From Anadara kagoshimensis (Eukaryota > Mollusca > Bivalvia > Arcoida > Arcidae), in the NCBI GenBank assembly GCA_021292105.1, contig CM037867.1, forward strand, positions 38,104,771 through 38,168,770: DNA of 64,000 nt. The letters are read 5' to 3'. The position numbers and the translations under genes were made by a program. Below are positions 35,535 through 61,001 of this stretch, piece by piece. The notes beneath the pieces were generated by a model that saw only the letters and a list, made by a program, of their open reading frames with translations, searched no databases and had not been told where the DNA came from. Each line of letters opens with the position of its first letter. Positions within the stretch are counted from its first letter, which is position 1.

Positions 35535-35552
35535 CATGCAATTTTTGTCCAT
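35535..35552 (-). CDS. candidate micro-exon B1 (18 nt)
   Basis: Acceptor AGTTGTTGTAG, 18-nt body, donor GTAAAT. In phase 1 it reads GQKLH between split codons. It is the micro-exon nearest the first EB exon, about 710 bases away, and has the same entering and leaving phase. The flanks match the other B copies (AGTAGATAAGAAACAAATCA on the donor side). The donor is weaker than in most copies. Support is splice sites, phase and family resemblance only. Confidence 0.5.
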
Positions 35553-35666
35553 CTACAACAACTAAAATAATCATTATATAATTTTTTTAATCGGGATAGT
35601 GATTCGGATATTGATTCGCATATTTGTATTTAAATATGCTACAATGCTACAAGTTTTTACTTTCAA

Positions 35667-35667
<1 letters not shown>

Positions 35668-35705
<38 letters not shown>

Positions 35706-35727
35706 ATCCCTCCCTCTTTCTCTCCCC

Positions 35728-35782
<55 letters not shown>

Positions 35783-35790
35783 ATATATCA
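35668..35790. repeat. (TC)n followed by (AT)n
   Basis: TC-rich tract to about 35740, then an AT run to about 35780. Confidence 0.95.
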
Positions 35791-36003
35791 TCCATCTGCC
35801 ATTCCTTACTAAACACAATCATAAAAAAGCCAATTTATAACGCTAACATTTAGATATAAAGACTTCAAACAGCAACAAAAACAAACATTTTCGATCGTGA
35901 CTCGCATACGCATATACATATTTTGTCATAATATAGACATGTAAAAACTGATTGATTTTCATTTTGTATTCATAAAAACGGAGATAAAAACGAATCAGCT
36001 TAC

Positions 36004-36024
36004 CTCTTATCCTTTTGAACATAC
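36004..36024 (-). pseudogene. decayed micro-exon A (21 nt, acceptor lost)
   Basis: Type A segment with an intact donor (GTAAGC). The body, aligned with other A copies, is 21 nt and reads MFKRIR in phase 1. The expected acceptor TAG is TTG here, so it probably cannot be used. A similar loss is seen at 55080-55100. Confidence 0.35.
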
Positions 36025-36636
36025 CAACAACAAATCAGACCATCATTATATAGTCATCATTTAATTATTTGTTAGTATGGTGAATATAATGCATATAAAT
36101 TCAAGCATAATTATGCATACATTGTTAAATCTGATATTAAGAAATGAACAGATATTGAAATGATTAAACTAACGATTTGTTTTTGAAATCCTCTAAAACA
36201 AACCACTAAGTTTAAGTACGAAACATATTAATCATCCATCTACTACTTACATTTTGAAAAAATATCAATATAAATCAAACTTTGTAGCTTTGCAGTAGGT
36301 ACCATGAAATACCTCTTCAAAGCTCTCAACTCTGAACTTTAAAAATTTATATTTATCGATTTAAGGCAGTACCCCACATTCAATCATTATCTAAAATGCA
36401 AAATTGTTATCGGCTTTGATCATACTACCTATGTTTTATCACATTTAGCCAAAAAGTACACGTTTGACTGATGACGGCACATGACGCCCAACAAACGACC
36501 GACGTACAATCTTTGCAATCGTTTATTTGGTTCAAATTGATGTTTCAATAGAATTGTGTCTGTCTAGCGGTTCAAATAATCTAAAAACGTTTATGGAAAT
36601 TTTTTGGAAATTGATATGATATTTAGATCTTAATAC

Positions 36637-36654
36637 CTACAATTTTTACAGTTC
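36637..36654 (-). CDS. possible extra micro-exon (18 nt)
   Basis: Acceptor TTCTTCCATTAGTAG, 18-nt body, donor GTATTA; phase 1 reads TVKIV. Its flanks do not match A or B units, so it rests on splice-like signals, length and open phase alone. Confidence 0.22.
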
Positions 36655-36939
36655 CTACTAATGGAAGAATAAAGGTAATTTTCATAGAAGCGTTTTTGAC
36701 ACTAGCATTTTCCATTTACACATTCTGCATTCTGTATATAATAAGTGATGTTCAAACAGAAGTAACCTAGATGGCCTACAGATACAATAGTAAAATTTAT
36801 TAATAATTGTTGTTTGAAACATTACAAGTTCTTCAAACAAATGAAAAAATATATGTAGTTTATTTTAGTTATTAATTTTATATATTAAGTGAAATCTTTG
36901 ACACAGGAACTTGCTCCGGTATTAATGAGCTCGCCAACT

Positions 36940-37236
36940 CACACTTAATCATCATTTGTTGACCAAGGGATATTGCAAGCCTAGACCTATCAAGGCAATA
37001 AAAGAGTTTTATGGCTGTCATCAGATTGTTGATCAGTCTTATGTTTCTGTGTCCAGAATTGCCCTGGATATGTTTAAGTCTCAGGGTTCCATGTGCCTTT
37101 AACCAATTTTAATCATACACGTTGCGAGTGTAACAAGCTAATCAGGAAGTACTTACCCTTCCAGAGCACCCGACCTCATTTATCCGGTTGAAGTTCAAGT
37201 GTTAACCTAAGTTTTTAGTTTCAGAATTTTTACTTT

Positions 37237-37240
<4 letters not shown>
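36940..37240 (+). mobile_element. R element copy leading into (TC)n
   Basis: CACTTAATCATCATTTGTTG near 36941 through CATTTATCCGGTTGAAGTTC to TTTTTACTTTGAAT and a long (TC)n tract (37237-37329). A truncated type B flank follows (CGTAAAAGACCTTAAACGGC near 37385) and is cut off before its exon by block P1. Confidence 0.75.
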
Positions 37241-37267
<27 letters not shown>

Positions 37268-37268
37268 T

Positions 37269-37329
<61 letters not shown>
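37237..37329. repeat. (TC)n microsatellite
   Basis: Long TC tract with short TTTC interruptions. Confidence 0.95.
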
Positions 37330-37332
<3 letters not shown>

Positions 37333-37436
37333 GTCATTACCAAATAAAATAATAATAATAAGATAATTTTTAACGATAATATTTACGTAAAAGACCTTAA
37401 ACGGCAACAAAAGCAGATATCGCCTTTTTAAACCAA

Positions 37437-38230
37437 TCCTGCTCAATAACTGTTCATTGTACGAAACAGTCGTCCATTGACCGAAAAAAAGTTTAAGATC
37501 TTACGGAAGAAACGGTATTTTTTATTTTTTATATGTTGTACACAAAATTCACAATAAGTGTTCAAAACTGACCCTATCGCTCAAAATAAAAAATTCTGCG
37601 TCTAAGCAAGTGCATTCTGGTGGAAATTTTCCACACTGCATTCAGCCTCTTGAAACAGCTTGTGTGAAACCGCCACTTAAAAACATTTTTTAAAGTATTA
37701 AGAAAATAATGTTATTTTTTTATTTTTTTTATTTTATGTACAAAATTTATACTAAATGTTTAAACTCAACCCTATCTTCCAATACGCAAAAGTCCGCCTA
37801 ATTGCACATAACAATCGTACATTTTCATTGACAAGGTCAAAGTTCAATGCATCATTTTTCCAATCGGTGATCGGCATCTCGAGATACCTACCAAAGAAGC
37901 CATTTTGTTAATAGGTTAAACATGACGCCTATTCAAGTGTCCATTTAGATTTACGAATACACAGTCATAATGTAGTAAATGTGCGCTTAGAATAGCCACG
38001 TTATTTCTCCTGTCAATAGGCGGAATATACAGTGCAACCCGGGACATGGAGGTCTACATCAGACGATGATATTTGAGCGCTGCAGGACATTCACCACGAT
38101 AATAATGTCAGGTAAGGATTGTTAGACCATGTTTTTTGTTTATGTGTTAACTTTGTGAAACGAGACAAAGTGATTACTCGAAGTAATTATCTGATTAGAG
38201 CCAGAGATCGGCAGCAAGCAGAAGCTATTT
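37437..38230 (+). promoter_or_regulatory. promoter-like block P1 with putative first exon
   Basis: Matches 46225-47100 over most of its length. It contains AGGTCAAAGTTCA (37834-37846), a DR1 nuclear-receptor-type site, then a CCAATCGG box (37860-37867). Downstream is AATGTCAG followed by GTAAGG, so a short first exon would end at 38111 with ATG at 38105-38107 and a coding start of only MS plus one base. What it would drive is unknown, and no downstream plus-strand exon was recognised. Promoter activity is inference from the duplication, motifs and donor. Confidence 0.4.
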
Positions 38231-38399
38231 GTCGGACAAATTATGTACAGGCATGTCAAAAGTTAAACACTGAGCTGCCCAAATCTCGGCCCCTCGGCAA
38301 CAGATATCCTTTGGACAACTCGGCAATTTATTTGGTCCTTCGGTACTTTAGTTTTTTCACAATGAGGCAGCTCATTCGATAATGACAAGGCTTTAAGTG

Positions 38400-39002
38400 C
38401 AACCTATTTTTTAATTAATAATAAAAATAAAATAAATGACAAAAATGTAAATAAAATTAACGCCAGGACGATGGAGTACCTGATAATTTTCAGAATTTAA
38501 TGAATCTTTTATATTCCATTAATGGCATTATCATGGATAAAAAAATGGCCAACTGCCATCACAGTTCCTTTGATTAAATCACATCAGGTGTCAATACACA
38601 ACTTTCAACAACTTTTGGTATTAACTGACAGTGTTGCTATAATCAGTAGCCAACATGTGTTTCCTCCTTATTTTTCAGCCTTATGTTTAGTGTATTTTAG
38701 ATGGACCTTGCTATTTCCAAGAACATTCTATCAGCTACTAAGCTATATCCATCTCGCACTCAGCAGTGAGATTCTAACCTAAGTACTCAGAGACACTGAT
38801 CTATAACAGTCGGCTTGTGTTTTATCCATTTAGACAGCTTAATCGTCAAGGACCTTGGCTTCACAGTATAAAAATAACATTGTCAGCTCAATAGTTTTTT
38901 TCAGGTACTCTGATTTCCTCAACCCTCTCAGAATTGAAACCTCAGAATTTACCTCTTTTTTAAAGCATAAGAATCTTGAGTGGGGTATTATACAGCATTA
39001 TT
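38400..39002. other. no gene recognised
   Basis: Small open frames without known domains (38522-38782, 38855-39040). Nothing supported. Confidence 0.4.
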
Positions 39003-39178
39003 GTACTCATTCAGAAACCACAGAGTTGCTCAATCATTAGATTGCTTGCTCCATATGTAGGATGTTGTAGGTTCCAATCCACCGCACCTTGCCCTGAGAA
39101 CATCAAAAATGTCTGCCACTTCAAAAATAGCTGGTGATGTCTCAATATAAAAGAAATATTCTTGACCAGTAAGAGCGC
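39003..39178 (+). mobile_element. S2-like SINE fragment
   Basis: tRNA-like head (GAGTTGCTCAATCATTAGA near 39022, GTAGGTTCCAATCC near 39067) and tail (GGTGATGTCTCAATATAAAA near 39132), with most of the body missing. It abuts the inverted D2 copy. Confidence 0.55.
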
Positions 39179-39179
39179 C

Positions 39180-39790
39180 AAGCCGGCTTTTTCTGAGAAT
39201 TGTGTTTCGGTTTTACAATTTTTTATCCTTCCGCCGATTTAAAAATTGGGATTACTTTTTGACAAGTGTGTCATGGCCGAAAAAGTGCCTAGTCTTTAAA
39301 CTAACGATATAACATTATTAAACATAGTTAAGCATTGTGTACCAATACATTATATGTCGGAATTACCAATTTTTTGACATTTGAGTTTAAATTTGAGATA
39401 CAATATTATCATCCACAAAAATATACAATTTCTTGACGCCAATTGAAGTCACGACAGAAACACCATGAATATTTTGTCAATCTTCAAACTTGGACACTTT
39501 TTGTTTAAAGAAAATTATTGCTCGATATTTTGTACAACATACAATAACACATCCCAAATTAAATTAAATTAAAACTAAAATATCCCTGGTGCATCAGGTG
39601 TAAATATCTTAATAAAGCGAAAATCTGGATAGTACATTTAGTTGTCAATGTAAACATATGTGGCTGCCCCCGCGATGATCGATGTACCGATATCAAGGAA
39701 ATGCCATGGCAACATGTTGAAATTATATTCACGCTAAACCGGTTCGGAAAATCAATAAGTCGCATGCTTCAATCACATTGTTTCACAAGT
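39180..39790 (-). repeat. dispersed repeat D2, inverted copy
   Basis: Reverse of 3780-4445: TTCGGTTTTACAA near 39207, ATCCTTCCGCCG near 39225, TTACTTTTTGACAAGTGTG near 39252 and GGCTGCCCCCGCGATGATCG near 39662. Confidence 0.55.
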
Positions 39791-39893
39791 TTTCAATTAA
39801 AATTAAAGTAATATATCCAAACCTTGATCGGTTGCCTGAATGGCAAAACCTCCATGCATACGCTATCAAGAGTTGTCTCTCTTCAATTGCATT

Positions 39894-39925
39894 TTCTGTG
39901 TGTGTGTGTGTGTCTGTGTGTGTGT

Positions 39926-39976
<51 letters not shown>

Positions 39977-39990
39977 CGAGCGAGAGAGAC
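39894..39990. repeat. (GT)n then (GA)n microsatellite
   Basis: GT run to about 39926, then GA-rich tract. Source of a spurious Arg/Glu-repeat open frame. Confidence 0.95.
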
Positions 39991-41740
39991 TGCTATAAGT
40001 TATATCCTTTACAATCGAAGGGATATAAAATGTATAGGCTGCCTGGCAAAATCATGCAAACCAATTTTGCAACCAATATATTCTCCAAAGAGTTATTTAT
40101 CTATAATGAGCAGCTATATTACCAGAGTAATTAGCAAGTGAGTGGTAACATAAATTTTGCAAATATACCAGATTTCTGGCTTGATAGATGTCATGTTGTT
40201 ACAACATCATGTACATTATATATAACAAGCCTCACAATACAAAGTTATTGACTGTCCATGCGTGTATGTTTGGGTGTGTGGCTATTTATTCAGTAAAAAT
40301 ATTATATACACATGTCACAACTGTGTGGGTTTGGATAAATGACTTGTGAAATTCAAATTATGTAAACTAAATACATTTGATTTAAGTAACAAAAATTTAT
40401 TAAGAAAAACAAATATAGTAAATATATATTCACACAAAATATATATCTGGCAATAAAGTTCTAGTACAGTACTGTACACACAAAATGTTCACATGTCCAG
40501 ACACTGTCTATATACATGCACAAATCGCATGTCCATAACATCCGTTACATTTTTATTGTTCATGTCAAATAGGGGCTACCATAGACTTATCATGATGGTA
40601 TAGACATCACCATGGTACAAAAACACAAACAGTATTTATTCACAGAAACACTGGAAACATCAGAAAAATACATTTAACACGATCCAGCTATTCCCTATAT
40701 GTAACTATCACTTGCTCCATGAAACATGTGCACATAATGTTTATACATTGACACCTCGGAATATAGTATGAAGATCTTGTACTAACACTAACTGGTCAGT
40801 GATTTCAGTCAATGCAAATCTTCACACCAATTGTCTTCCATACAGGGATTATAATAATACCACAGAGGTACCACATTGGTGTAAAATGTCTGAACCACTC
40901 AGATACAAAATACTTTCACCACACAAATGTAAATGTTTTAACCACACAGGTTCAAATATATATAAATTTAGAGACACACAGGCAAAATATTAAACTCAAA
41001 TTTAAAAATGTCAGACCATTCTCTCTCATAAAATGACCATCCACACATGACCTCTACAGTATATGGTCTGCTACCAACTCTCATCCCACAGCATGGACAG
41101 GTAAAATTGACCATATCAGGTAATTAATTTGCATAAAGTCTTGCACAATAATGACAAGCTGGCAGTAGAACTACACCTGTTTCTCTACTACCCTCACCTA
41201 CATCTACCCAGATTAAATAAAATAATAACAAACATTGCACATATGTATGGATCTGTTTCAAAAGTCAACACCACCCCCTTTGCAACATTTTGAAAACAAT
41301 ACTTGTGGAGAGAAAAAAAGATTGTTTTACTTTGAACTTTTTTTTGCTTTTATATGGTTTAGTCATGGAAATTAAATTGTTTTATGATACGTGGTAAACA
41401 TATGATGTCTCTCCCTTTCAGTCTTGAGGCAATGACAAACTATGTTGTTAGTCAATGCCATTTAAAAATATGGGTTTATGAAAACTGTCTATATACCCAT
41501 AAGTAACTTTTGAGTATACAGATTTAATTTAATCGGTTAATACTGGTTACATTTTGAATTTGAGACTTAACTAGCCAGTCTTATACTATTCAGTTATGGG
41601 TTTAGAAATTATTTTCCTCATTTGTTACTTTGAATTGATTTAGTATAGTTTGTACCTGCATAGTGAAACAAAGAGAATTAGACAATGTGTAAAGTGACAA
41701 GTTGAATAGGTGTTTGTTGAATTCTTAGTTTCTTAGGAGC

Positions 41741-41773
<33 letters not shown>

Positions 41774-44640: not shown

Positions 44641-45109
44641 TTTGTTTAATTTTAGTCAGTGACTGGTTTTTTTCTCTGAATTAAGATTTTAAAATGTAAC
44701 CGGAATTGTTAAAAGTAGTTGTGGGCGAGTTTCATATATTCTGATGTGTTTATGTTATAACCCTGGTCATAACATCCGGTGATATATTGAACACAATTCC
44801 CGAGTTTGCCTCGTCCAAAGGTTCGTTATTTTTTGCCCAATTTGTTTCCATTTTTGGAAGTTCACAAATTTTAATGAATCCATACGACAGAGGTTTTGGC
44901 GTTTCTACTGTAACTGCATGTAAAAAAAAATCAATCAATCACTCAATTGATCCACTTATTCAGAATATACAATTATTTTTAATCTTTCATTCATTCATCT
45001 ATTTGATCATGTTGATCACTGATGACTTTTTATTTTTTATGTACTTATTTATATACAAAATGTAATTTAATCAGAATGTTTATTTCTTAAAATCTACTTC
45101 TATCCTGGA

Positions 45110-46170
45110 ATAGAATGCGTTGCTTTGTGGTCCGTTTTAATTTTCTGTTGCAGCTTTGATGGTTCATCGACTTAATCCACCTATCAATATACAGCTGGTT
45201 TGAATGTCAGCAATTTGACAGCCTGAAACTGGATCTTGAAGAATCTTGACTGGAAAGTACTTAAATATAAAACATCATTACTCCACCCCATCAAGATAAG
45301 TGATAGAATCTTAACGGGTATGAAGCATCAACTCTTGGTATATGTGAAAAAAAATCTTGTCTGGGAAGTAAAACACCATTTCTAGATTCCCATCATCTCA
45401 GAACTGACCATCTCAATATAAGTGAAAGAGTCTTGAGGGTGTAAAACATTTTTAATCCATTCCATCCTCCCGAACTGATTTTCTAGATACATGCCAGTAT
45501 AATTTAAATGTGTTTTTTTTAACTAAAGTCAAGAGTATTTTCACTTATATCAAGGCTGTTATATGATGAATGAAGGAGGAAACTGGAGTGCCAAGACAAA
45601 ACCACAGACCTTTGGCACAAAAACCAATAAACTTTCTCACACTTACATCTATTATACCAACAGGGCCTAAATGAGGTAATGGTAACAGAAAAGAGACTCC
45701 GAGACAAATGAACATGGAAAACTGTGACCTCCCATACTAACAGAATGCTTTGCCATTGAACTATCTTGTCACATGTTGAGCAAAATACCCCACACCTTAA
45801 TCGATCAATTGAATGAGTTTTTCCTAGCCCAGAATAATTCACTTATATCAAGACGTCACCAGCTCTGTTTAAACATTTGTCAGCTTTGAAAGGCAAGTAC
45901 AGTCGATATATCCGAGTACCTAACCTGGACACTCCATGTAAAGAATGGAACAATCTAGAGGATAGTGACGAATTCATTCGAAACATCCTATTGATGTGAA
46001 ATGATAAAGGCGACAACTTTCTCATATTTAGCAGCGTATAACAGCACTTTTGGGAAAGTTGAGAAAGCTTTATACGATTTTGATAAAACTTTCAGAGGTT
46101 ATGGAGTCTGATGTCATCTAGCTATCTAAATTGCTGATGTTTGGGGAAAAAATCCGGATCATACTTATTT
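45110..46170 (+). repeat. dispersed repeat E, copy 1
   Basis: Opens with GAATGCGTTGCTTTGTGGTC and CCACCTATCAATATACAGCT, then several diverged 70-80-base units around TCAATATAAGTGAAAGAGTC, the same tail word as in S2 SINEs, then TTCACTTATATCAAG and a TAACCTGGACACTCCATGTA block (45922). Copies lie at 47875-49060 (direct) and 50500-51360 with 52730-52940 (inverted). Confidence 0.7.
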
Positions 46171-46224
46171 TTGGGGTTAAACGCGCAAAAAATGGACTTT
46201 TCATACAAACTCTCTGTTTAACCG

Positions 46225-47100
46225 ACTCCTGTTCAATAACCGTTCATTGTACGCAAAAGTCGGCAATGCGCCGAAAATAGATTAAGATCTCGCGGATAAA
46301 ACGGTATTTTTGTATTTTCTCTATGTTTAACACGAAATCCACAATAAGTGTTCAAAGTTGACCCTATTGCTCAAAATAAAAATTTCCGCGTCTAAGCACG
46401 TGCAGTCTGGCGGAAATGTTCCACAAAAAAACAATTCTGCATTCGGCCTCTTGAAACAGCTTGTGTGAAAACTTCACTTCAGGTATCAACTTGAAAGTCG
46501 GTAAAATATATTTTAAAGTATTAGGAAAATAACGGTATTTTTATATTTTTTCTATCTTATGTACAAAATTTATAGTAAATGTTTAAACTCAACCCTATCT
46601 TTCTAATACGCAAAAAGCCTGCCAAATTGCATGCAGCAATCGTACGATTTCATTGACCAGGTCAAAGTTCAATGATTACTTATCCAATCAGCGTTCGGCA
46701 ACTCGAACCCTACCTAACTGCCCAAGAAGCCATTTTAAACTTGAACTGCAGACAAAACATGGCGTTAAAACTTGAAAGTTTACTTTAGGCTATATCCGAT
46801 ACTCTGACAGATAGACGGTCGGACTGTAAGGGTACGCTTGTAATGACGATCATGTTAGTTCTCCAATAAACGGAGGGAAGTATAACAGAAACAAACATAA
46901 TGTTTGTAAACGGCCATTTGTGATGCGTGGATTTACCAGAACTGGCAAAAGGATTTTTCAGCAATATAATGTCAGGTTAGTATTGTGAGACCATGGGTTT
47001 TGTTTATGTGAAACGTTCGTGAAACCAGACAAAGTGATTACTGCAAGTAATTTGGTTTTTAGATCCCGAGATCGGCATCAAACACAAGCTACTCTTCGGA
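46225..47100 (+). promoter_or_regulatory. promoter-like block P2 with putative first exon
   Basis: Second copy of P1. AGGTCAAAGTTCA (46659-46671, DR1 type) and CCAATCAGCG (46684-46693) are conserved, as is the ATGTCAG first-exon end (ATG 46969-46971, last base 46975), but the donor here is GTTAGT. Flanking words such as GACAAAGTGATTACT follow in both copies. No downstream exon was identified. I infer duplication of a promoter and first exon or of a transposon that carries one. Confidence 0.4.
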
Positions 47101-47874
47101 CAATGTGTCATTTCTACAGTACAGGCTTGTCGAAAGTTTAACACTGAGCCGTTCATCTCTCAGCTTCTGAAGTTGTCGATAGCTCGGCAACTAATTCCGG
47201 GATCTCGGCACTTTGTGCTGTCTACAGCTTGCTGTCAATCATGTACTCTAATTAGCTGGAGAAACAAAGCGGTGCACCTAATACAGGGGAGAGATGAGGG
47301 ATGAGGGGGTTAGCTGAACTTGTTGGTAAATAATTTATGCACAGTCAATGCGAAGTATACATGTAGGCACGTTTTTCTAGGGGGGTATGGGGGCATGCTC
47401 CCAAATAAAATTTTGAAAGAAGTATAACAAAAATGATACATTTTCAAAAAAAAAAAAAAAAACATTTAATCAATCAATCGTTCCACTCTTTCAGAGAGTA
47501 CAATTATATCCTCGAACGTCCGTGATTCGAGACTCTAATAGAAAACGAACTAAATTTGCTAACGCAACAAGAATTTGAGAGCTGAAAAATAGACAACTGA
47601 TTTTTCTGGATAGTTTCACAGTAAATACCTAAATTTTGTCTTAAATCCATATAATCGTCACTGCAGAGACGATACTCGCGTATAATAACTGAAAACAAAA
47701 ATGGCCTCGAATCTTATGACGCTCTCGATTTTAGGACGGTCGACGATAAATCTGCATGTTTTTCATTTCTTCAACTGTGCCTTGATTCATTCTAATTTTT
47801 ATATTTTTATGTACCTGATTTATAATTTAATCTGATAATTTTTTATTTATCGAAATCAACTGAGAACTATCCTG

Positions 47875-49060
47875 AATAGAATGCGTTGCTTTGTGGTCCG
47901 TTTTAATTTTCTGTTGCAGTTTTGATGGTTCATCAACTAAATCCACCTATCAATATACAGCTGGTTTTGACGTTGGCAATTTGACAGCCATGAACAGGAT
48001 CTTGAAGAATCTTGACTGGGGAAGTAATTAAAATAAAACACCATTACTCAACACCATCACCTCAGGACTGACTGTCTTGACATCAACTGATAGAATCTTG
48101 ACAGAGGTAGGAAGTATCACTACTCTATCACACCAACCCAGAACTGATTCTCTCTGTATATTTGAAATGATCTTGTGTGGGAAGTAAAACACCATTTCTC
48201 CACACCATCATCTCAGGACTGACCGTCTCAATATTAGTGAAAGAATCTTGACTGTGGAATAAAACAATTTTAATCCATTTCACCATTCCAGAACTGGTTG
48301 TCTAGATACATTCATCTTATATACACAGTGTGTAGGTACAACCCTCACTATCAGGTACTACAAGTAGTAATACAGCTACAAAAAAAAGACGAGACCTGAT
48401 ATGAAGGGTTGTACCTACACACTGTGTATATAATATTATTATCTAACATTTCCAATTAGGTTATTTAAAATAAATAAAAAACAATACCTAATGTGAAAAA
48501 AAATCATTTTACAACAGAAAACCACTGAACTATGTTGTGACATTTGTTCTCCCTAATGAGGTCACAATGAGAACGTGCACATGCACTTTACCGCCAATGT
48601 TGTATCACCACAGTGTGGTTTGAAAACTTGTATTTCGTAGAAAAACTAAGCTAATGTTAGATACATGCCAGTATAATGAAGCTGCATTTTACCTAGCCAA
48701 GAGTATTTTCACTTATATCAAGGCAGTTATATCATGAATGGTGGAGGAAACTGGAGTGTACAAAGAAAACCTCGGACCTTTAGAAAGCAAACCGAAAAAA
48801 CTTTCTCACACTAAGATCTGCCAAACCAAAAATGGCCTTACTGGGTTAACAGTTATTGGGCTTAATGGTTTGTTAATAATACTTTTGTAATAGAAAAGAA
48901 AAAGATGCACATGGAAAACATATACTTTAACCCCAGACGTTCCCATACTAGCAGGATGTTTTGCCATTGAACTACCTGGTGACCTGTTGAGCAGAATCAA
49001 TCTCACCTTAATTGATAAATTGAATTTTACATTCCCAGTAAAGAATGTTTCACTTTTACC
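47875..49060 (+). repeat. dispersed repeat E, copy 2
   Basis: Same start as copy 1 (TAGAATGCGTTGCTTTGTGG), the same 70-80-base units (47990-48300) and the same TACATGCCAGTATAATG block near 48664. It is interrupted at 48318-48432 by a foldback element. Confidence 0.75.
48318..48432. mobile_element. foldback element in repeat E
   Basis: Ends TATATACACAGTGTGTAGGT and ACCTACACACTGTGTATATA are perfect complements, and pairing continues through ACAACCCT. Internal ATCAGGT and ACCTGAT also pair. Copy 1 of E has no equivalent at this position, so it is an insertion. Confidence 0.85.
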
Positions 49061-49074
49061 AAAACGCTACCAGC

Positions 49075-49325
49075 TATAGGTGAAGTGGCATACTGCATGG
49101 CAGTAGGAGGATACCTGGCTTATGAGTTTCAACACAGACAAGTGTGACATATTGAGTTTTACCAATACAGAAACCGCATATATCCACACATGTCATTCAA
49201 GGAGTTCCCTTATCCTCTGTGAAGACAAAAAAGTACATGGGACTCAACATGAGTGCCAACCTCACCTGGACACCCCATATGGACAATGTAACACCCCTCC
49301 CCTTGACACCATTTAGGCAGCTACG
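49075..49325 (+). pseudogene. LINE reverse transcriptase C-terminal fragment
   Basis: Reads WLMSFNTDKCDILSFTNTET in one frame, then after a frameshift LGLNMSANLTWTPHMDNV. These match the FNxxKC and YLGxxxSxxLxWxxHI segments near the end of jockey/CR1-like reverse transcriptases. Frames are broken. A related inverted scrap is at about 50495-50525, and a CTAACCTGGACACTCCATGT match lies in E copy 1. Confidence 0.7.
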
Positions 49326-49350
49326 TGTATGGTGGGGGTGAATAAGCAGA

Positions 49351-50399
49351 TTTTTAGCTCACCTGAGTTCAAGTAAGCTATTGTGACCAGTCTTTGTCCG
49401 TCGTGTGTCATCCGTCGTTCAGCGTGGGTCAACATTTGCTTGTTAACACTCTAGAGGCCACAGTTTTTGTTATATCTTCATTAGACTTGTCCAAAATAAT
49501 GTCAAAAGGTAAAATACTTATTAAACCAACATGACCTTGCTTTGGCCATGAACATCGTTCTGGACAAATTATATGTCAGAAGTTTGGACAAAAAGATGGA
49601 CTCTAGAGTGTTAACAAGGTTTTTTTCTATGATTTGACTAAGTCACCTACTTATTGACCCAACATGGCCCATATACACACTTGACCATGCTTTGATTCAC
49701 AACATCGTTCTGGAGAAAATATATAAAGACATATGAACTCGTAGGTGTTAACAAGGTTTTTCGATGATTTGACCCAGTGACCCTCTTATTTATGCAACAT
49801 GACCCATTTACAATCTTTACCTTGCATTTGTCATGTACATTGTTTTGGACAAATTATATGAAGATTGGACAAAAAATATGGACTCCAAAGTGTTAACAAG
49901 GTCTTTCTTTGGATTGACCTTGTAACCTACTTATTGATCCAACATGACCAATATATGAACTGTGGTCATCAACATTGTTCTTGACAAATTATATGAAGAT
50001 TGGACCAAAAACTGGACTCTAGAGGGTTAACAAGGTTTCTATGATTAGACCTAGTGACCTACTTATTGACTCACCATGACCCATATACAATCCTGACCTT
50101 GCTTTTGTCATAAACATTGTTCTGTACACATTATATGAAGATTGGACAAAAATGGACTTTAAAGTGTTAACAAGCTTTTTCTATGATTTGACCCAGTGAC
50201 CGACTAATTGACCCAACATAACCCATATATGAACTTGACTAAGCTGATGGCATGAACATAGTTCTGGACATGTTTGATGAAGTTTTAACTAAATCTGTGG
50301 CATCTCTAGAGTGTTACAATGAAAAGTTGAAGAACGATGAACGATACAATGACTGATACAAAAGCTCACTTGAGCACTTTGTGCCCAGGTGAGCTAAAA
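49351..50399. mobile_element. inverted-repeat element with ~165-bp tandem core
   Basis: Ends TTTTTAGCTCACCTG (49351-49365) and CAGGTGAGCTAAAA (50386-50399) are inverted repeats. Between them lie five to six diverged tandem units. Each contains GTGTTAACAAGG, GATTTGACCCAGTGACC, ACCCAACATGACCCATATAC and GACAAATTATATGAAGATTG. No transposase is seen. The core looks like a small satellite trapped in a short DNA transposon. Confidence 0.8.
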
Positions 50400-50499
50400 G
50401 TGACAGTTTTCCAAATAATTAACCATTTAGATTTTCTGTTGTATATATGACCTTGACCTATGATCTTCATTTACATATCAAAATGACACATTGTCTACA

Positions 50500-51360
50500 T
50501 GGGGTGTCCAGGTTAGGATGGTACTCGTATCTACAGTACTTGCCTTTGAAAACTGACAAATGTTTAAACCGACCTGGTGACGTCTTAATATAAGTGAAAT
50601 ATTCTGGACTAGGAAAAACTCATTCCATCAATATATTAAGTTGTGGGGGATTGTGCTCAATAGATTACTAGGAAGCTCAATGGCAAAGCATTCTGTTGGT
50701 ATGGGAAGATTCCAGGTTCAAATTATATGTTTTCCAAGTGCATTTGTGTCAGAGTCTTTTTTTTGTATTAACCACTAAGCAATCATTACCCCAGTAAGGT
50801 CAAGTCCTAGTGTGAGAAAGTTTGTTGGTTTACTTTCCAAAGGTCTGTAGTTTTCTCTTGGCACTCCAGCTTCCTCCATCATTCACGATATAATTGCCTT
50901 GATATAAGTAAAAATGCTCTTGACTTAAGTAAATAAAACAGTTATATTATGCTGGCATGTATCTAGACAATCAGTTCTGGAATGGTGGTATGGCTTTAAA
51001 TAGTTTTACACCCAAGTCAAGATTCTTTCAATTATATTGAGATGATCAGTTCTGAGATGATGGGAGTCTAGAAATGATGTTTTACTTCCCAGACAAGATT
51101 TTTTCACTTATACCAAGAGTTGGTGAAGTTGAGTATTGATGCTTCATTACCGTTAAGATTCCAATAACTTATCTTAATGAGTTGAAGTAATGCTGTTTCA
51201 TATTTTATTACTTCGAAGTCAAGATTCTTCAAGATCCTGTTTTAGGCTGTCAAATTGCTGACATCCAAACCAGCTGTTTATATATAGGTGGATTGAGTTG
51301 ATGAGCCATCAAAACTGCAACAGAAAATTAAAACGGACCACAAAGCAACACATTCTTTTG
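50500..51360 (-). repeat. dispersed repeat E, inverted copy
   Basis: Reverse of E. CAGCTGTTTATATATAGGTG (51270) and GACCACAAAGCAACACATTC (51336) correspond to the start of copies 1 and 2. Confidence 0.75.
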
Positions 51361-51859
51361 CAGGATAAAAAGATTTAAATATTAAATAAAAAATTATTTG
51401 ATTAAATTATAAATAAGATTCATAAAGAATTAAAAATTTAAAAATTCATTACAGCGAACAAAAGCATAACACGATTTCTAGGTTTCCACACATTTAAAAT
51501 AATTAGTAGCCAAATTTCCAAAATTTGAGAAATTATAGTCCCTTTTAAAGAATTTTTCCACAAATTTGCTAAAATAGGTTACTTTTTGAAAGAATTTCTC
51601 AGAAAGTAGTAGCCAACGGCGATTTTGGCTACCAGGAATGGAATCATAGGATTTACAGAAAAGTTTATAATGATTGTATTTCAAAATGAGTGGAATAAAC
51701 TAATGCTGTTTAAGACCCCACTCAAGATTCCTTTTTTAAATGCAGTCAGTTAATAGGGTGGTGGAGGAAACCAGAGTACCCGAAAAACCCTAGATTTTAG
51801 CTAGTGAGCTGATACTTCCGACTTTTTCTTGTTCAAGGATCCTTGACGACAAAGTTTTC

Positions 51860-52010
51860 TAAAGCACATGCTTACTTAGTTGGAAGTTAATGTGTCTAGC
51901 CCGACTTGTCAGTTCCAAAGTTTTTACTTTGCTTTTGGATTGTGATTCAGACATGGATTGGTATGTTTGTTTTTGTTTGATATCAGTGTCTCTCACTACT
52001 TGGTATGTTA
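51860..52010 (+). mobile_element. R element right-end fragment
   Basis: TTGTCAGTTCCAAAGTTTTT near 51906 and GGATTGTGATTCAGACATGG near 51936: an intact right end of R without a (TC)n or B insertion. Confidence 0.7.
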
Positions 52011-52729
52011 GAATCCTACTTCAGAAGAAGAAGAAGCTAGAAGTTTGTATTTTCTGAGTGAGATGGACATTGTTCAGTAGGCAAGCTGATAAAATGTTTT
52101 TGGAATCAGCAGCACAGGCCCATCAAGAATACACCATCTTAAGACTAGAAAACAAGAGAAAAACATGTTTGACTATAGATTGCGTAATACTGGCTTGGGA
52201 TACAATGACTGAATTTCACCTGGGGATTGCAGATTATTTGAATTATTGTCCTCAAAAATACAATTACGTAGTTGCTCATTAATTCATCTATAATAGCAAT
52301 TTTCATAAACATAATTTGTGGAATGAAAACATATCATATTTTACACATTCTGACTAAATATTGACCTAATAGCCCCTGTAAATCGTGAGAAATAACGGCC
52401 TCGTAGTGTCGTGTACAGGCGGTCGGAGGAGGTCGGTAAATACCGCGACCGGAAATCGGTTTTTAATTATTGAATTATATTTGAAAAATCACCCAGGAGA
52501 AATATTATGATGAACGCATGTTTTGAATTACATTACACCATGGCTCAATTTGGTTACGGGCCGACTTTGATATGGGCCATATTGTCTTAAACCGATATGG
52601 AATCGCACGTGTCATGGACAAACTCCCCCTCCTTCTAATTCCTTGATCTGCCTATGAGTTTGTCGTCGATTTCGAATCGTAATCAGCATAGTACAATTTT
52701 TGCATGTTTGACCCCAAAATTAAGTATGA

Positions 52730-52940
52730 TACCGATTTTTCCCAAAAAATCCACCAAGTAAGATAGCTAGATCGCATTAGACTCCATGACCACAGAAATG
52801 TTTAGCAAAATCTATCGAGTAGTTTTCAAGGTCCCCAAGATGCTGATATATGCTGCTAAAAAGGAGAAAGTTGTCGCCTTTATCATTTCACATCCAGAGA
52901 ATGTTCTGAACGAATTCGGAACTAATCCTCTAGATTGTTC
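52730..52940 (-). repeat. inverted piece of repeat E, rearranged
   Basis: GGAGAAAGTTGTCGCCTTTA (52862) is the complement of 46005-46022, and neighbouring words pair with 45955-46170. In E copy 1 this piece directly follows the part found at 50500-51360, so the inverted copy is broken and reordered. Confidence 0.65.
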
Positions 52941-53798: not shown

Positions 53799-53819
53799 TT
53801 CTTCTTGGTTTCCCGACAA
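53799..53819 (-). CDS. candidate micro-exon A2 (21 nt)
   Basis: Acceptor TTTTTTTTGTAG, donor GTAAGT. Phase 1 reads VGKPRR. The body is close to A4 at 54774-54800, which has six more bases. Flanks follow the A type: CGTAGATAAGAAACATATTA on the donor side and ATAAGACCATCATTTTATAG on the acceptor side. Nothing but splice signals, phase and family resemblance supports it. Confidence 0.55.
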
Positions 53820-54095: not shown

Positions 54096-54116
54096 TTATA
54101 AACGTTTGATTCCAAT
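54096..54116 (-). CDS. candidate micro-exon A3 (21 nt)
   Basis: Acceptor CTTATTTTTAAG, donor GTAAGT. Phase 1 reads WNQTFI; phase 0 runs into a stop. The body belongs to a second A subgroup with 55080-55100 and 36004-36024. The acceptor AAG is less common than TAG or CAG. Confidence 0.48.
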   Translation of the reverse strand: MGIKRL

Positions 54117-54330: not shown

Positions 54331-54348
54331 CACGTAATTCTTGTTTAT
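54331..54348 (-). CDS. candidate micro-exon B2 (18 nt)
   Basis: Acceptor TTATTAGTAG, donor GTAGAT. Phase 1 reads KQELR; the phase-2 reading has an immediate stop. The body is identical to 56699-56716, whose donor is destroyed, so this is the usable copy of the pair. Confidence 0.5.
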
Positions 54349-54773: not shown

Positions 54774-54800
54774 TTCCTCCAATCCTTGGTTTCCCGAAAG
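54774..54800 (-). CDS. candidate micro-exon A4 (27 nt)
   Basis: Acceptor TTTTTTTGTAG, donor GTAAGT. Phase 1 reads FGKPRIGG. Compared with A2 it has an in-frame 6-nt difference, and its second half resembles A5 at 60978-61001 (ATTGGA). It has one of the strongest splice-site pairs in the array. Confidence 0.58.
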
Positions 54801-54853
54801 CTACAAAAAAATAAGACCACCATTTTATAGTCTTCATTTAAAATGTTTCGATA

Positions 54854-54884
<31 letters not shown>

Positions 54885-55079
54885 TGTAAATTCGTAATAA
54901 AATAAATTAACAAAAAGCCGATAAATACCACTTATACTTAAGTAAAAAGACCTTAAACAACAACAAAAGTTTTCGATGGTGAATTGCACATGCGTATTTT
55001 GTTATAAACTTGTCACATAAAAACTTATTCATTTTATTTTTATTGATAAAAACGTAGATAAGAAACAAATCAACTGACG

Positions 55080-55100
55080 GTGAAACGCTTGATAATAATC
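55080..55100 (-). pseudogene. decayed micro-exon A (acceptor lost)
   Basis: Type A flanks on both sides, donor GTCAGT, 21-nt body open in phase 1 (YYQAFH), but TTG where the acceptor AG should be. Probably not spliced in. Confidence 0.35.

Positions 55101-56211: not shown

Positions 56212-56215
<4 letters not shown>
55867..56215 (+). mobile_element. R element copy leading into (TC)n
   Basis: Left end ACCTACCTATCCATATCC, body GCCGTCATCAGAGTATTGTT, and TTTTTACTTCTCTC running into a (TC)n tract (56213-56275) followed by a B segment. The R right end (GGATTGTGATTCGGACATTG) resumes at about 56463. Confidence 0.8.
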
Positions 56216-56277
<62 letters not shown>

Positions 56278-56376
56278 CAAAATAATAATAATAACAAATG
56301 GCCAATTTATAACGCTAATGTTTAGGTAAAAGACTTTGAACAGCAACAAAAGTAGATAAGAAACAAATCAACTTAC

Positions 56377-56424
56377 CACGATCAATAAGCTTACGGTATA
56401 AGTGTGATTTCGTTCCTCCTCCTC
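56377..56424 (-). CDS. candidate micro-exon B3 (48 nt, two in-frame donors)
   Basis: Acceptor CTTATTTTTAG, donor GTAAGT. Phase 1 reads GGGTKSHLYRKLIDR. An inner GTAAGC donor would give a 30-nt form (56395-56424) in the same phase. The last 18 nt resemble an ordinary B exon, so the 5' 30 nt look like an added extension rich in GGA codons. Both forms keep the frame, and phase 2 would hit a stop. Confidence 0.5.
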
Positions 56425-56698
56425 CTAAAAATAAGAAAATCATTAAATAGTTTTTTTAAATCGGGATTGTGATTCGGACATTGATTCGCTTATTGTATTT
56501 CAATATGCTACAATGACAATGTTTACTATTTTCGAATGTCAGTTATATTCTTTGAATGATGAACTAACAAAATCTCTCTCTCTCTCTCTAACACTCAATC
56601 AAAATAAAAATAATAATAAAAGGCCAATTTATAACGCTAATATTTAGGTAAAAGTCTTTGAACAGCAACAAAAGTAGATAATAAACAAACCAACCTTC

Positions 56699-56716
56699 CA
56701 CGTAATTCTTGTTTAT
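56699..56716 (-). pseudogene. decayed micro-exon B (donor lost)
   Basis: Body identical to B2, acceptor TTTTTACTAG present, but the donor is GAAGGT where GT should start. Otherwise a complete type B segment. Confidence 0.45.
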
Positions 56717-56882
56717 CTAGTAAAAATAAGATAATCATGAAATAGTTTTTGTAATCGGGATTGTGATTCGGACATTAATTTGCATATTGTATTTGAATAT
56801 GCTACAATGACAATGTCTACTGTTTTCGAATGTCAGTATTATTCTTTGAATGATAAACTAACAAAATCTCTCTCTTTCTCTT

Positions 56883-56926
<44 letters not shown>

Positions 56927-57017
56927 ATTCTAAAATAAAAAAGCCAATTTATAACGATGATATTTACGTAAAAGACTTTAAACAGCAACACAGTAGATAA
57001 GAAACAAATCAACTTAC

Positions 57018-57029
57018 CAAGTTTAATAA
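57018..57029 (-). CDS. candidate micro-exon B4 (12 nt)
   Basis: Acceptor TTTTTTGTAG, donor GTAAGT. Only four codons' worth: IKL between split codons in phase 1; the phase-2 reading has a stop. It is the shortest member and is clearly B type by its flanks (ATAAGATAATCATTTTATAG on the acceptor side). Confidence 0.48.
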
Positions 57030-57164
57030 CTACAAAAAATAAGATAATCATTTTATAGTTTTCTGGTATTGATTCGCATATTTGTTTTTGAATATGCTAC
57101 ATTGACAATGCCTACTGTTTTCGAATGTCAGTAATATTCTTTGAATGATGAACTTTCAGAATCT

Positions 57165-57376
57165 CTCTCTCGCTCTCTCTCTCACTCTCACTCATTCTCT
57201 CTCTCTTTCTCTCCCCCTCTCTGTGTCTCTCATCTCTAGTTTCTTAATAAAATAAATTAACAAAAAGCAAATAAATACCGCTTAACGTAAGTAAAAAAGC
57301 TTTAAACAAAAACATAAGTTTTCGATCGTGAATTTCATATGCGTATTTTGTTATAAACTGGTCACGTAAAAACTTA
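57165..57376. repeat. (TC)n and type A flank truncated by LINE
   Basis: TC-rich tract (57165-57230), then a type A flank (TTTCGATCGTGAATTTCATA) ending at GTCACGTAAAAACTTAT, where other A copies continue to the donor. The LINE starts here, so this unit has lost its exon. Confidence 0.8.
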
Positions 57377-59465
57377 TAAATAAAAAAAGTAATGGACCTA
57401 AAATTGATCCCTGGAGTACGCCAAATTTTACTGCTTTTTCCAAAGATAGATGCTTTGATATTGATACAGTTTGAAACCTATCTTGTAAATGTGATTTAAA
57501 CCACTGTAAAGCATAAACAGAAAAAAATGTTTTTCTTGAGTTTATACAAAAGAATTTTATGGTCAACCAGATCAAATGTTTTTGACAAATCGATAAATAT
57601 AACGCCAACATACTGCCCCTCATCAATAGCCATCGTCCATTCATCAACAATAATTGCTGATAATGTTGTTTGACAAGAATGTTTCTCTCCGAAACCAGTT
57701 TGTTGGTTAAAGAGTGCATTGTATTTACGTAAAAATAATATAAGGTACTTATAAATGCGACGTTCCAATATCCTGGACACTATTGGAATAATTGATATTG
57801 ACCTGTAATTATCCGAGCGGTCTTTATCACCCTTTTAATGTATTGGTATTATTTTGGCCATTTTAAAATAGGGACGGATATGTTAAATTAATAATACTAA
57901 GGTTAAATATTTATGTAAGTGGTTCAGCAATATGCTCTGCTGAATGCTTCAAAAAATGATCCTATATAGTCTAGACCAGTTGACTTCTTTATATCTAAAC
58001 TCAACAATTTTTTTTCAACAAAACTAGAATCAACAAGTGGTATTTCAAACGAAAACAAAACTACGCATGATTGAATCTGATTATGAGTAATTTATATCAT
58101 TTAAGTCAGAGTTTTCATCAAATGTAAAATTCTCATAAACGTTTGAAAAAAAGTCATTAAACATGTTGCCAACTTGAGCAGAATTTGTAACAAGATTGTC
58201 TGAACTATCTCTTAAATGAAAAAACTGAATTAGTATTAGATTTTCACCCATTGTCTTGTGTAAATGTTTTCTTAGAATTACCCTTATTATTTTCTATAGA
58301 TCGTGAGAAGTATTTTGATTGTATATTGCTTATCAAATATTTAGTATTATTACGCCAGTACCTATAGGCATTATCGCTGTTTTTCCTTGTAAAATAATCA
58401 CGGTTTTCATTGACTTGATAATTTCTTGATTCGTATATTCTGCTTGTTTTGTTCTTTTTACCCTTTTTCTAACTAAAGGTGCGTAAACATTTATAACATC
58501 CAGCATCGATTTGACAAAAATAGACAAAGAATATTCAACACTAGTATGGTTATAAACAATATAAAGGCAATTTATCTAACTGATTTTTAAAAAGATCCAA
58601 TCAAAGTTTTTCATGCATCTTTACATTATGTATGTATGATTATGTTTAAAATCTTTGGTGTTTTTACGCCTATGTGTAATGCATACTGGGTAATTGCATA
58701 CTGGTTAGTGATCATTATGGAATAAACAGGGACTTCAACATTTTTGATATTTTTCAGGTGTATTGGTATAATCATGATCTATTAATATACTAGAAGTTTT
58801 AGTAACACCAGTAGCTTTATTTACAATCTGAGTATGGCCAAATCAATTGACAAAATTTAACCACGATGTGCATCGATTTTTTGTAAAAGGTCAAAATTAA
58901 AATCCCCAATTAAAACAATTTCTTTGTTTTCTGTTTCTGCAAAAAGATACATTTCTTCAAAATTCTCTATCAAAGATACAGGACTTGATGGTGATCGATA
59001 AACATAACCAATTATAATTCTAACTAATTTACTTCTAACTCAATATGTTCTAGATCCTTTTTTCTTACGGACGTTAAACTAGAAGACACATGTATTACCA
59101 GTCTTTCACCTGCATAATTAAAAGGGAGTGTTTCTAAAAATTTCGAAACTTTGAGTATTTATTTCTTTCTCTAAAACACTACTATTGCAATAAGTTTCAC
59201 AAAACATATAATGTCTACATTACATTTATTTGCATTAACAAGATAATTGAGTTAATCAAGTTTTTGAGTAAATTTTAAATGTTAAGATGTAAAATATTTA
59301 AACCATTATCTTGAAAGCAAAATAGATTTGGCACTACCCTAGTATTTGTTTTAAAAAATGCAAAAGCGGTACACAAACACATTAGATGATAACAAAGTAT
59401 ATATTGTATAAATTGTTAAATTTCAAATAGGTTTAGACTAAGATCTAGGCTAGTTGTATTTTGAT
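57377..59465 (-). mobile_element. broken LINE (endonuclease and reverse transcriptase)
   Basis: On the minus strand, an endonuclease end reads IIIGYVYRSPSSPVS and EIVLIGDFNFDLL (about 59100-58860). A post-endonuclease region near 58500-58400 follows, with KRVKRTKQAEYTNQEI. The reverse transcriptase then reads LFNQQTGFGEKHSCQTTLSA, VGVIFIDLSKTFDLVDHKIL and FGVLQGSILGPLLFLF (57780-57400). It matches CR1/L2/jockey-type LINEs. Stops, frameshifts and loss of both ends, including the catalytic YxDD region, make it inactive. It sits inside the micro-exon array and interrupts a type A unit. Confidence 0.88.
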
Positions 59466-59530
59466 ACCAAAAATCTACAAAAAATCAGATCATCATTATA
59501 TAGTCTTCATTTGAAATGTTTCGATATCAA
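59466..59530 (-). repeat. type A segment remnant (acceptor side only)
   Basis: CTACAAAAAATCAGATCATC and TATATAGTCTTCATTTGAAA: the acceptor side of an A unit whose body and donor side were replaced by the LINE. Confidence 0.6.
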
Positions 59531-59774
59531 AAAAATGAATAGTTATTAAAATGAATAAAATAATGAGGTCTTTTTTCTGTAAAACAAACCTCTAAGTTTG
59601 AGTACTAAACATATCAATCTACTTCTGACATTTTGTAAAAATATCAATAAAATTCAAACTTTGTAGCATGTTACTTTGTAGAACAATTCTGAGATCCCAT
59701 GAATGCATGGTCATCAAAACTAAACTTTTAAGTCAGACAGTAAATCTAAAATCATTCTTAATGTCTAAAATACT

Positions 59775-60200
59775 CAAACACAAACCTACCAGTCCATATC
59801 TATGTAACAGTAACTGTTTCAAAATCAAAGCAAAAACATTGATACTTTATCATCACTTGTTGAACCAGGGATATTGCAAGCCTAAACCTATCAAGGCAAT
59901 CAAAAGCATTTATGGCCGTCGTAGTGTTGATAAGTCTGATGTATCTGTGTCCAGGATTGCCTGAATATATTTAACGTCTCAGGGTTCTGTGTTCCTTTCA
60001 CCAAATTTTAATTTTACACGTTGCAAGTGTAGCTAGCTAAACAGGAAGTACTTACCCTTCCTCAGCGCACGACCTCATTTATCTGTTTGAGGTTCACGTG
60101 TTAACAGTTTTTAGAGTTTGAAAGTTTTTACTTTGAATCTTTCTCTCTCTTGTGATTCGGACATTCATTCGTATATTTATTACTGAATATGCTACAATGA
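59775..60200 (+). mobile_element. R element copy, compact right end
   Basis: Left end ACCTACCAGTCCATATC (59787), body GCCTAAACCTATCAAGGCAA (59880), right end TTTTTACTTTGAATC, a very short TC tract, then TTGTGATTCGGACATTCATT (60150). This copy shows R without the B segment. Confidence 0.8.
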
Positions 60201-60256
60201 CATAGGCAACTGTTTTCGAATGTCGGTTATATTCTTTAAATGGTGAATTAACAAAA

Positions 60257-60257
<1 letters not shown>

Positions 60258-60304
<47 letters not shown>
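60258..60304. repeat. (TC)n microsatellite
   Basis: Clean TC tract. Confidence 0.95.
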
Positions 60305-60308
<4 letters not shown>

Positions 60309-60316
60309 AACTGTAG

Positions 60317-60490
60317 TTTAACGTCTCAGTTTTCTTATTCCTTTCACCCAATTTTGATTATACAGGCTGCGTGTTTAGCTAGCTAAACAGGCGGTGCTAA
60401 CCCTTCCGGAGCACCCGACCTCATTTATCTGGTTGAGGTTCACGTGTTAAAAGTTTTCAGTTTCAAAGTTTTTACTTTTAATCTCTCTCT
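60317..60490 (+). mobile_element. R element, partial, leading into B segment
   Basis: CGTCTCAGTTTTCTTATTCC (60322) to TTTTTACTTTTAATC and a short TC tract, then the B segment. The left half of R is missing. Confidence 0.7.
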
Positions 60491-60547
60491 CTTTAGGTAA
60501 AAAACTTTGAACAGCAACAAAAGTAGATAAGAAACAAATTAACTTAC

Positions 60548-60565
60548 CATGTAAAATAAGTTTAT
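60548..60565 (-). CDS. candidate micro-exon B5 (18 nt)
   Basis: Acceptor TTATTTTTCGTAG, donor GTAAGT. Phase 1 reads KLILH; the phase-2 reading meets an immediate stop. Flanks are typical B (AGTAGATAAGAAACAAATTA). Confidence 0.52.
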
Positions 60566-60719
60566 CTACGAAAAATAAGATAATCATTATATAATGTTTA
60601 TAATCGGGATTGTGATTCGGATATTGTTTCGCATGTTTGTATTTGAATATGCTACAATGACCATGGCTACTGTTTTCGAATGTCAGTAATATTCGTTGAA
60701 TAATGAAGTAATAAAATAT

Positions 60720-60720
60720 A

Positions 60721-60772
<52 letters not shown>
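60720..60772. repeat. (TC)n followed by (AT)n
   Basis: TC to about 60745, then AT to 60772. Confidence 0.95.
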
Positions 60773-60776
<4 letters not shown>

Positions 60777-60977
60777 ACCCCATTTGTAGTTTTCTAATAA
60801 AATATATTGACAAAAAGCAGATAAATACCACTGAATCTTATTAAGTAAATTATACTTAACAGCAACATAAGTTTTTGATTGTGAATTTCATATGCGTGTA
60901 TTGATATAAACTGGTCACGTAAAAACTTATTTTATTTTTTATTGATAAAAACGAAATTAAGAAACAAATCAGCTTAC

Positions 60978-61001
60978 TTCCAATCGTTCGATTTCGGAAA
61001 T
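60978..61001 (-). CDS. candidate micro-exon A5 (24 nt)
   Basis: Acceptor TATTTTTGCAG, donor GTAAGC. Phase 1 reads FRNRTIG. It aligns with A2 and A4 in family A. It is the farthest micro-exon upstream that I can see. The array stops at about 61030, where block P3 begins. Confidence 0.55.

Follow-up and report, generated by a model that had tools for sequence, protein, structure and literature searches.

The sequence that precedes a receptor-like gene of the bivalve Anadara kagoshimensis raises the question of whether a series of very short intervals, each bordered by splice-site dinucleotides, serves this gene as exons. The window analysed here is the whole 64,000-nucleotide (nt) stretch C11:38104771-38168770 (contig CM037867.1 of assembly GCA_021292105.1), and the genome searched comprises 36 contigs and 1.115 Gb. 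A preliminary description of the window had proposed nine phase-1 micro-exons on the minus strand, lying in duplicated intron segments and joining an upstream exon that ends at 63825 to the receptor gene. Judging from the sequence, the locus can be read as a single-locus tandem array of short, phase-1 symmetric coding exons before an LRP-like receptor gene, which may be used as cassettes; we give this reading a probability of roughly 0.38, and cassette use appears to be the best fit across all units. A dead relic is considered as likely. The proposed interpretation is supported for the coding-exon-like array and the open receptor gene, and not for the partner exon at 63825.

All nine proposed intervals were matched exactly on the minus strand, with lengths of 12-48 nt, an AG before and a GT after each, but the list was incomplete, as flank profiles and reading of the sequence add further units. 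Applied to the window, to 40 kb upstream of it and to the paralogue stretches, the profiles resulted in 16 units on the minus strand of C11, 13 within the window and three (21, 21 and 9 nt) upstream of it, plus a donor-only fragment near 37419. Because of an insertion, the acceptor of the unit at 55079-55099 was matched twice (55150 and 55597), and it was counted once, as an interrupted unit. The best match on the other strand (16603, plus strand, E value 0.0094) is weak and was excluded from the count. Both AG and GT are intact in 11 units, namely the nine inside the window and an upstream 21-nt and the 9-nt unit, the former with a borrowed donor. There are two unit types, A and B, unlike each other in both flanks. 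The units are as follows, those of the window being given in their order along the minus strand:

A units (8): 60548, 57018, 56699, 56377, 54331, 35535 and two upstream of the window
B units: 60978, 55079, 54774, 54096, 53799, 36004 and the upstream copy of 36004
60978..61001, minus strand: e1, B type, 24 nt, phase 1, xFRNRTIG; exact match; dispersed repeat at most 38 nt upstream
60548..60565, minus strand: e2, A type, 18 nt, xKLILH; exact match; ATG at 60587 gives MIILFFVDKLILH
59475..59527, minus strand: e3, B-like, acceptor side only, donor side lost; flank profile
57018..57029, minus strand: e4, A type, 12 nt, xIKL; exact match; from ATG MIILFFVVIKL
56699..56716, minus strand: e5, A type, 18 nt, exon the same as in e9; donor GA, dead
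56377..56424, minus strand: e6, A type, 48 nt, xGGGTKSHLYRKLIDR; exact match
55079..55099, minus strand: e7, B type, 21 nt; dead acceptor (TTG) and GTCAGT as donor; homology used to place the ends
54774..54800, minus strand: e8, B type, 27 nt, xFGKPRIGG; exact match
54331..54348, minus strand: e9, A type, 18 nt, xKQELR; exact match; weak donor GTAGAT
54096..54116, minus strand: e10, B type, 21 nt, xWNQTFI; exact match
53799..53819, minus strand: e11, B type, 21 nt, xVGKPRR; exact match
36004..36024, minus strand: e12, B-like, 21 nt; dead acceptor (TTG); a unit upstream of the window has the identical exon
35535..35552, minus strand: e13, A type, 18 nt, xGQKLH; exact match; closest to the receptor body

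The unit e3 is cut by a long interspersed nuclear element (LINE), whose reverse-transcriptase remains were seen by eye after the acceptor, and in e6 an internal GTAAGC, also noticed by eye, would yield a 30-nt exon, likewise a multiple of three. The array continues upstream in the stretch L024:3386-4640, which holds a 9-nt exon-like interval, TTATACGAC, and the copy of the 36004 unit with the identical exon. Large inverted repeats with arms of up to 207 nt and 79-94% complementarity occupy 45098-52924 and are perhaps a fold-back element inserted between the array halves.

Phase 1 is the sole phase open in all nine of the originally proposed intervals, phase 0 being stopped in one (54096-54116) and the third phase in four (60548, 57018, 56377 and 54331), and the first domain exon of the receptor (34690..34824) starts in phase 1 like the micro-exons, all as initially described. 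When nine pieces of the same lengths were taken at random from this intron, phase 1 was open in every piece in 2.2% of the draws; with base shuffles this figure was 0.5%. In all 15 units with placeable ends the interval is a multiple of three (24, 18, 12, 18, 48, 21, 27, 18, 21, 21, 21, 18, 21, 21 and 9 nt), the ends being set by homology where a splice site is dead. Net length differences from the commonest length are multiples of three in 6/6 exons versus 6/27 flank segments (Fisher P 0.0008, or P 0.0013 with repeated values counted once), where the flank segments overlap one another, a few anchors are misplaced and one of the six exon differences stems from the borrowed-donor unit. As evidence, this multiple-of-three pattern is moderate, not overwhelming. 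Among the B units, the stretch before the AG differs by a multiple of three in 1/5 cases and the exon in 2/2, which would suit an acceptor followed by a coding exon, i.e., a cassette.

The splice sites are of comparable quality in the array and in the receptor gene. Pyrimidine content is 0.79 before 12 unit acceptors, 0.68 before 11 receptor exons and 0.43 before all 1733 AG dinucleotides in 34.8-64 kb, and, by a donor scoring matrix, the 11 units in which AG and GT are intact have donors of -0.3 to 7.1 bits (median 4.6) compared to 1.2 to 6.2 bits (median about 2.5) for eight receptor exons. In their lengths, phase and splice sites the short intervals therefore look like coding exons, as the preliminary description suggested.

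Whole units are restricted to the C11 locus at the sensitivity of the genome search, which used one unit per type. The A unit gave 28 matches (25/25 candidates scored), eight at the locus and 20 elsewhere, the latter covering only 38-50 nt of one arm, and the nine matches to the B unit all fall within the locus. The notion of duplicated intron segments understates the situation, as the A-type cores sit in a dispersed element resembling miniature inverted-repeat transposable elements (MITE-like), whose arms enclose the A core, most clearly, by eye, at e2, e6 and e13. The element is represented next to the receptor gene by:

35211..35435, minus strand: right arm of the dispersed MITE-like element; genome search

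Copies of this arm are scattered through the genome (40 of 3933 candidates scored), and in the fetched stretches the two arms of dispersed copies are 6 nt apart in 12 of the 18 matches found; in the genome search with one A unit, the A core was not found spreading with the element. The array blocks also carry (GA)n spacers. It would appear that B and A units and the element were duplicated locally as blocks, and that LINE and other insertions broke the series. One might alternatively suppose that the units belong to a dispersed transposon family that merely contains AG...GT, with copies genome-wide, given that dispersed repeats make up the arms enclosing the A core, the sequence preceding e1 and the open reading frame at 63.9 kb. 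The whole A and whole B unit, however, match at the C11 locus only, with 38-50 nt of one arm elsewhere, and this contradicts the idea for the unit cores at the search sensitivity stated, leaving it very improbable. Remains seen by eye at 13700-14800 on the plus strand, outside the array, appear to be those of a Mariner-like transposase.

A receptor gene with EB, FN3 and propeller parts and an open frame does follow the array, as reported initially. It lies on the minus strand, and 11 exons (34824 to 11220) join stop-free into one 684-aa (amino acid) frame in the modelled order EB-FN3-EB-linker-propeller (two exons)-EGF-EGF-start of a second propeller:

34690..34824, minus strand: EB module exon (EB1), first domain exon; phase 1 at start and end
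32016..32297, minus strand: FN3 exon; Pfam and joined frame
31199..31330, minus strand: second EB exon; alone slightly under the Pfam cut-off
30024..30104, minus strand: linker exon; paralogue comparison and joined frame
29020..29374, minus strand: LRP-like beta-propeller exon 1; without Pfam YWTD match
21044..21417, minus strand: beta-propeller exon 2; joined frame and phmmer
20376..20516, minus strand: first EGF-like exon; under the Pfam cut-off
19292..19417, minus strand: second EGF-like exon; Pfam above cut-off
12312..12518, minus strand: first exon of the second propeller; order in the C17 paralogue; without Pfam match
11832..11870, minus strand: 39-nt phase-1 symmetric mini-exon within the second propeller; joined frame
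11220..11400, minus strand: next exon of the second propeller; without Pfam match

EB1, FN3 and the second EGF-like exon are thus above the Pfam cut-off, with the second EB and first EGF-like exons below it. The propeller was called, without a Pfam YWTD match, because phmmer against solved structures gave LRP4 and LRP6 as the best matches (about 1e-41, residues about 231-500), and the receptor body, with its propeller and EGF-like module, appears to be LRP-like.

The mini-exon at 11832-11870 encodes SPKTKPLKHITS, and blastn gave no counterpart of it in the C17 paralogue. Between the EGF and second-propeller exons, 15426-15486 holds a signal-peptide-like open reading frame, MSLNLLLLLILLGIWILETG, that by eye has a donor in phase 1; as 29 nt of this frame are found again near the C1 paralogues, it may be repeat-derived. 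A separate second gene beginning at 15486 was considered but not retained, since the equivalent downstream exons of the C17 paralogue continue from its EGF exons.

The exon proposed as the upstream partner of the array is not supported in this role:

63825..63981, minus strand: rejected exon candidate, pieced together from two dispersed repeats; GTGTAC donor at -5.1 bits

One dispersed repeat makes up its first 122 nt (of 1471 candidates 40 were scored as matches, the exon itself among them), and another its residues from about 30 to 53 (of 1185 candidates 150 were listed as matches, again with the exon itself). The ATG is missing in 10/10 aligned dispersed copies, a degraded local copy upstream does have it, out of frame, and the donor is the lowest of the 21 scored. 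Other candidates were also rejected: a signal exon at 99616 (extended coordinates), MKSRRLLVLLYSIFLSHVTG, is within a repeat with further copies nearby, and the promoter-like region 61040-61420, in which CCAAT-like motifs were seen by eye, consists of dispersed repeat sequence (of 687 candidates 40 were scored as matches, the region itself among them), as does the stretch directly upstream of e1. No convincing signal-peptide exon with a phase-1 donor was found in the 69 kb upstream of EB1, the A units aside, where a relaxed scan gave 22 candidates, seven of them A units and the others not each tested individually. The C17 relative does possess a classical signal-peptide exon with the donor CAG|GTAAGT in phase 1, located 2.8 kb ahead of the first EB exon; another C17 copy has the same one.

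The A units themselves could fill this place as alternative first coding exons that would join EB1 by their phase-1 donor, with the B units as cassettes or relics. What looks like the polypyrimidine tract of an A unit reads ATG ATT ATC TTA TTT TTT GTA G..., a start and a hydrophobic run, MIILFFV.... An alternative first exon would have its own start codon, in frame to a shared downstream exon; A units are in frame from their ATG to the phase-1 donor (7/8 by scan, the eighth, with the dead donor, by eye), B units are not. When the donor had to exceed 3.5 bits, the scan gave five matches across all the regions scanned, four of which are A units. Between ATG and AG, second codon positions show 0/11 changes while first and third positions vary (permutation P 0.0075 in this register and 0.034 in any register); 11 random substitutions would all leave the run hydrophobic with P 0.008, and the T sites of this stretch turn mainly into A or G by eye. 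The signal-peptide exon before the first EB exon of the C17 relative also speaks for such a position. These P values are, however, generous because the idea arose after the pattern had been seen, and the relaxed scan yields many further candidates, both in the 69 kb and near the paralogues. The hydrophobic run of most A units has just six residues and is followed by a charged one, which is short for a signal peptide, longer runs of about eight or nine residues being found in two (57018 and the upstream 9-nt unit). Furthermore, the A units show no similarity to the C17 signal exon beyond that of codon shuffles (8/8 units, P 0.10-0.96), the AG is retained in 8/8 of them, and the B units do not read as starts (phases 0, 2, 2 and a stop, by eye). 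Since it was seen post hoc and most leaders look too short, the start-exon reading is kept only as a rival and is regarded as unlikely.

With the first EB module as query, 28 EB hits were obtained on four chromosomes (C17, C1, C9 and C11). Two family genes of C17 (L040, L041 and L042; C17:1346001-1366000 and 1441600-1446700) have the same signal-peptide exon translation, and the first of them has repeated EB-FN3 pairs ahead of the propeller. One C1 copy of the FN3 exon contains a stop. No units were found near the paralogues at E 0.01 in the fetched C17 and C1 stretches (15 kb of the latter consisting of N), and 20 kb more of C17 gave weak matches only (E 0.2-0.9). In the intron 5' of EB1, similarity to the C1 paralogues ends at 35210 (C17: 35149), where the element sequence begins.

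The array may equally well be a relic or by-product, that is, short exons that once were coding, or intronic pieces, in a transposon-rich local duplication and unused now. Several observations weigh against cassette use. Five of the 16 units are without a splice site or interrupted, by dead acceptors, a dead donor or the LINE insertion, a sixth has the borrowed donor, and by a rough estimate the remaining units retain AG and GT no more than drift would leave them. Counted as alignment gaps, multiples of three make up 4/7 in exons versus 3/16 in flanks, which is not significant (P 0.14); this contrast is weaker because the aligner splits exon differences, and since, in addition, the frame depends on net length, net length was given more weight. 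The unit lengths are not independent, because the units copy one another, and a second phase is likewise free of stops in each of the six B-type exons, as judged by eye with one interval shifted to homology-placed ends. The proposed upstream exon is of repeat origin, no credible first exon was found in the 69 kb, and the intron similarity breaks off at 35210, as would be seen if a copy truncated at its 5' end had been joined to foreign sequence. The Pfam scan of the receptor exons found no YWTD repeat. Finally, the ratio of nonsynonymous to synonymous substitution rates (Ka/Ks) against the C1 paralogues is near 0.8 (0.74-0.91; 2 to 4 of the 11 exons compared, 29-35 kb), therefore constraint is weak or mixed, which may be read as relaxed or diversifying evolution of these exons. 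Against a relic stand the net lengths of the exon intervals, which follow multiples of three, the phase open in 9/9 intervals, and the receptor body, stop-free over 684 codons. With several units dead, the first exon missing from the scans and these Ka/Ks values, the relic is placed on a par with cassette use.

According to the cassette reading, the array would have grown via local duplication of blocks in which units of both types are combined with (GA)n spacers and the MITE-like element. Each intact unit, with its own acceptor and donor, could be included or skipped with the frame preserved, and splicing them together would place a short and variable peptide right before the first EB domain, of up to 69 residues from the nine exons. 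Transcription, inclusion, secretion and any ligand-binding role of the product are, like the block-wise duplication, what we infer. In either mode, cassette or start exon, the predicted product is a variable peptide preceding the first EB domain. A more far-reaching version, which we consider quite unlikely, is that the dispersed element gained a phase-symmetric coding core and that the composite was amplified to at least 16 units before a truncated duplicate of an LRP-like receptor, so that transposon-borne micro-exons would give a combinatorial N-terminal peptide; it includes a fast-evolving receptor family and some units doubling as start exons with a hydrophobic leader.

Among known systems, the micro-exons of schistosome micro-exon genes (MEGs) are symmetric, multiples of three and alternatively spliced, and the first MEG exon carries the signal peptide. 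These genes are described as having very short exons with long introns between them and coding for variable secreted proteins (PMC10526429). The array resembles them in its short symmetric exons, multiples of three in 15/15 placed intervals, and differs in being an add-on to an LRP-like body in ordinary exons, its units being near-copies of one unit. MEG products are secreted; here no convincing signal-peptide exon was found in the 69 kb, the A units aside and with not every relaxed candidate tested, and the proposed one is repeat-derived. The gene does not belong to the MEGs because most of the coding sequence found lies in ordinary exons (207 nt in nine micro-exons versus 2052 nt in 11 receptor exons). 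Aphid bicycle genes have many small internal exons of a single phase, nearly all of phase 2 in the numbering of the paper (PMC9168663). A uniform phase is common to both, but here it is phase 1 and the exons lie before a receptor-like gene, which sets the array apart. In Dscam and the clustered protocadherins, tandem exon duplicates used in a mutually exclusive or alternative way stand ahead of a constant receptor part. The array is similar in its tandem duplicates preceding a receptor part; the Dscam and protocadherin exons, however, encode whole domains or more, and the array units 3-16 residues. LDL-receptor-related proteins (LRP4, LRP6, LRP2) likewise have a propeller and then an EGF-like module (matches of 1e-35 to 1e-41), whereas here EB-FN3 modules are N-terminal in a family with EB matches on C17, C1, C9 and C11. 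Receptors of the LRP family also have a transmembrane segment and a cytoplasmic tail; the exons modelled here reach as far as the start of the second propeller. If used, the array would work like a cassette array, and it is filed under neither MEGs nor bicycle genes. No paper on bivalve microexons or a bivalve EB module was found in the open-access library searched; two papers matched for oyster microexons look unrelated, and among those listed for mollusc micro-exons nearly all deal with parasites.

If the array is used, micro-exon cassettes would here be attached to a modular receptor, not to a small secreted peptide, and would have been amplified along with a transposable element. Such an array would also be a concrete single-locus case for tracing the origin of micro-exons, since the genome still contains dispersed copies of the element that lack the exon core, as seen in the fetched stretches. 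Should the doubtful composite-element reading be true, it would represent a transposon route to a variable receptor end in an invertebrate. As far as the sequence allows it to be said, if the pieces are used, the gene may give its protein different front ends.

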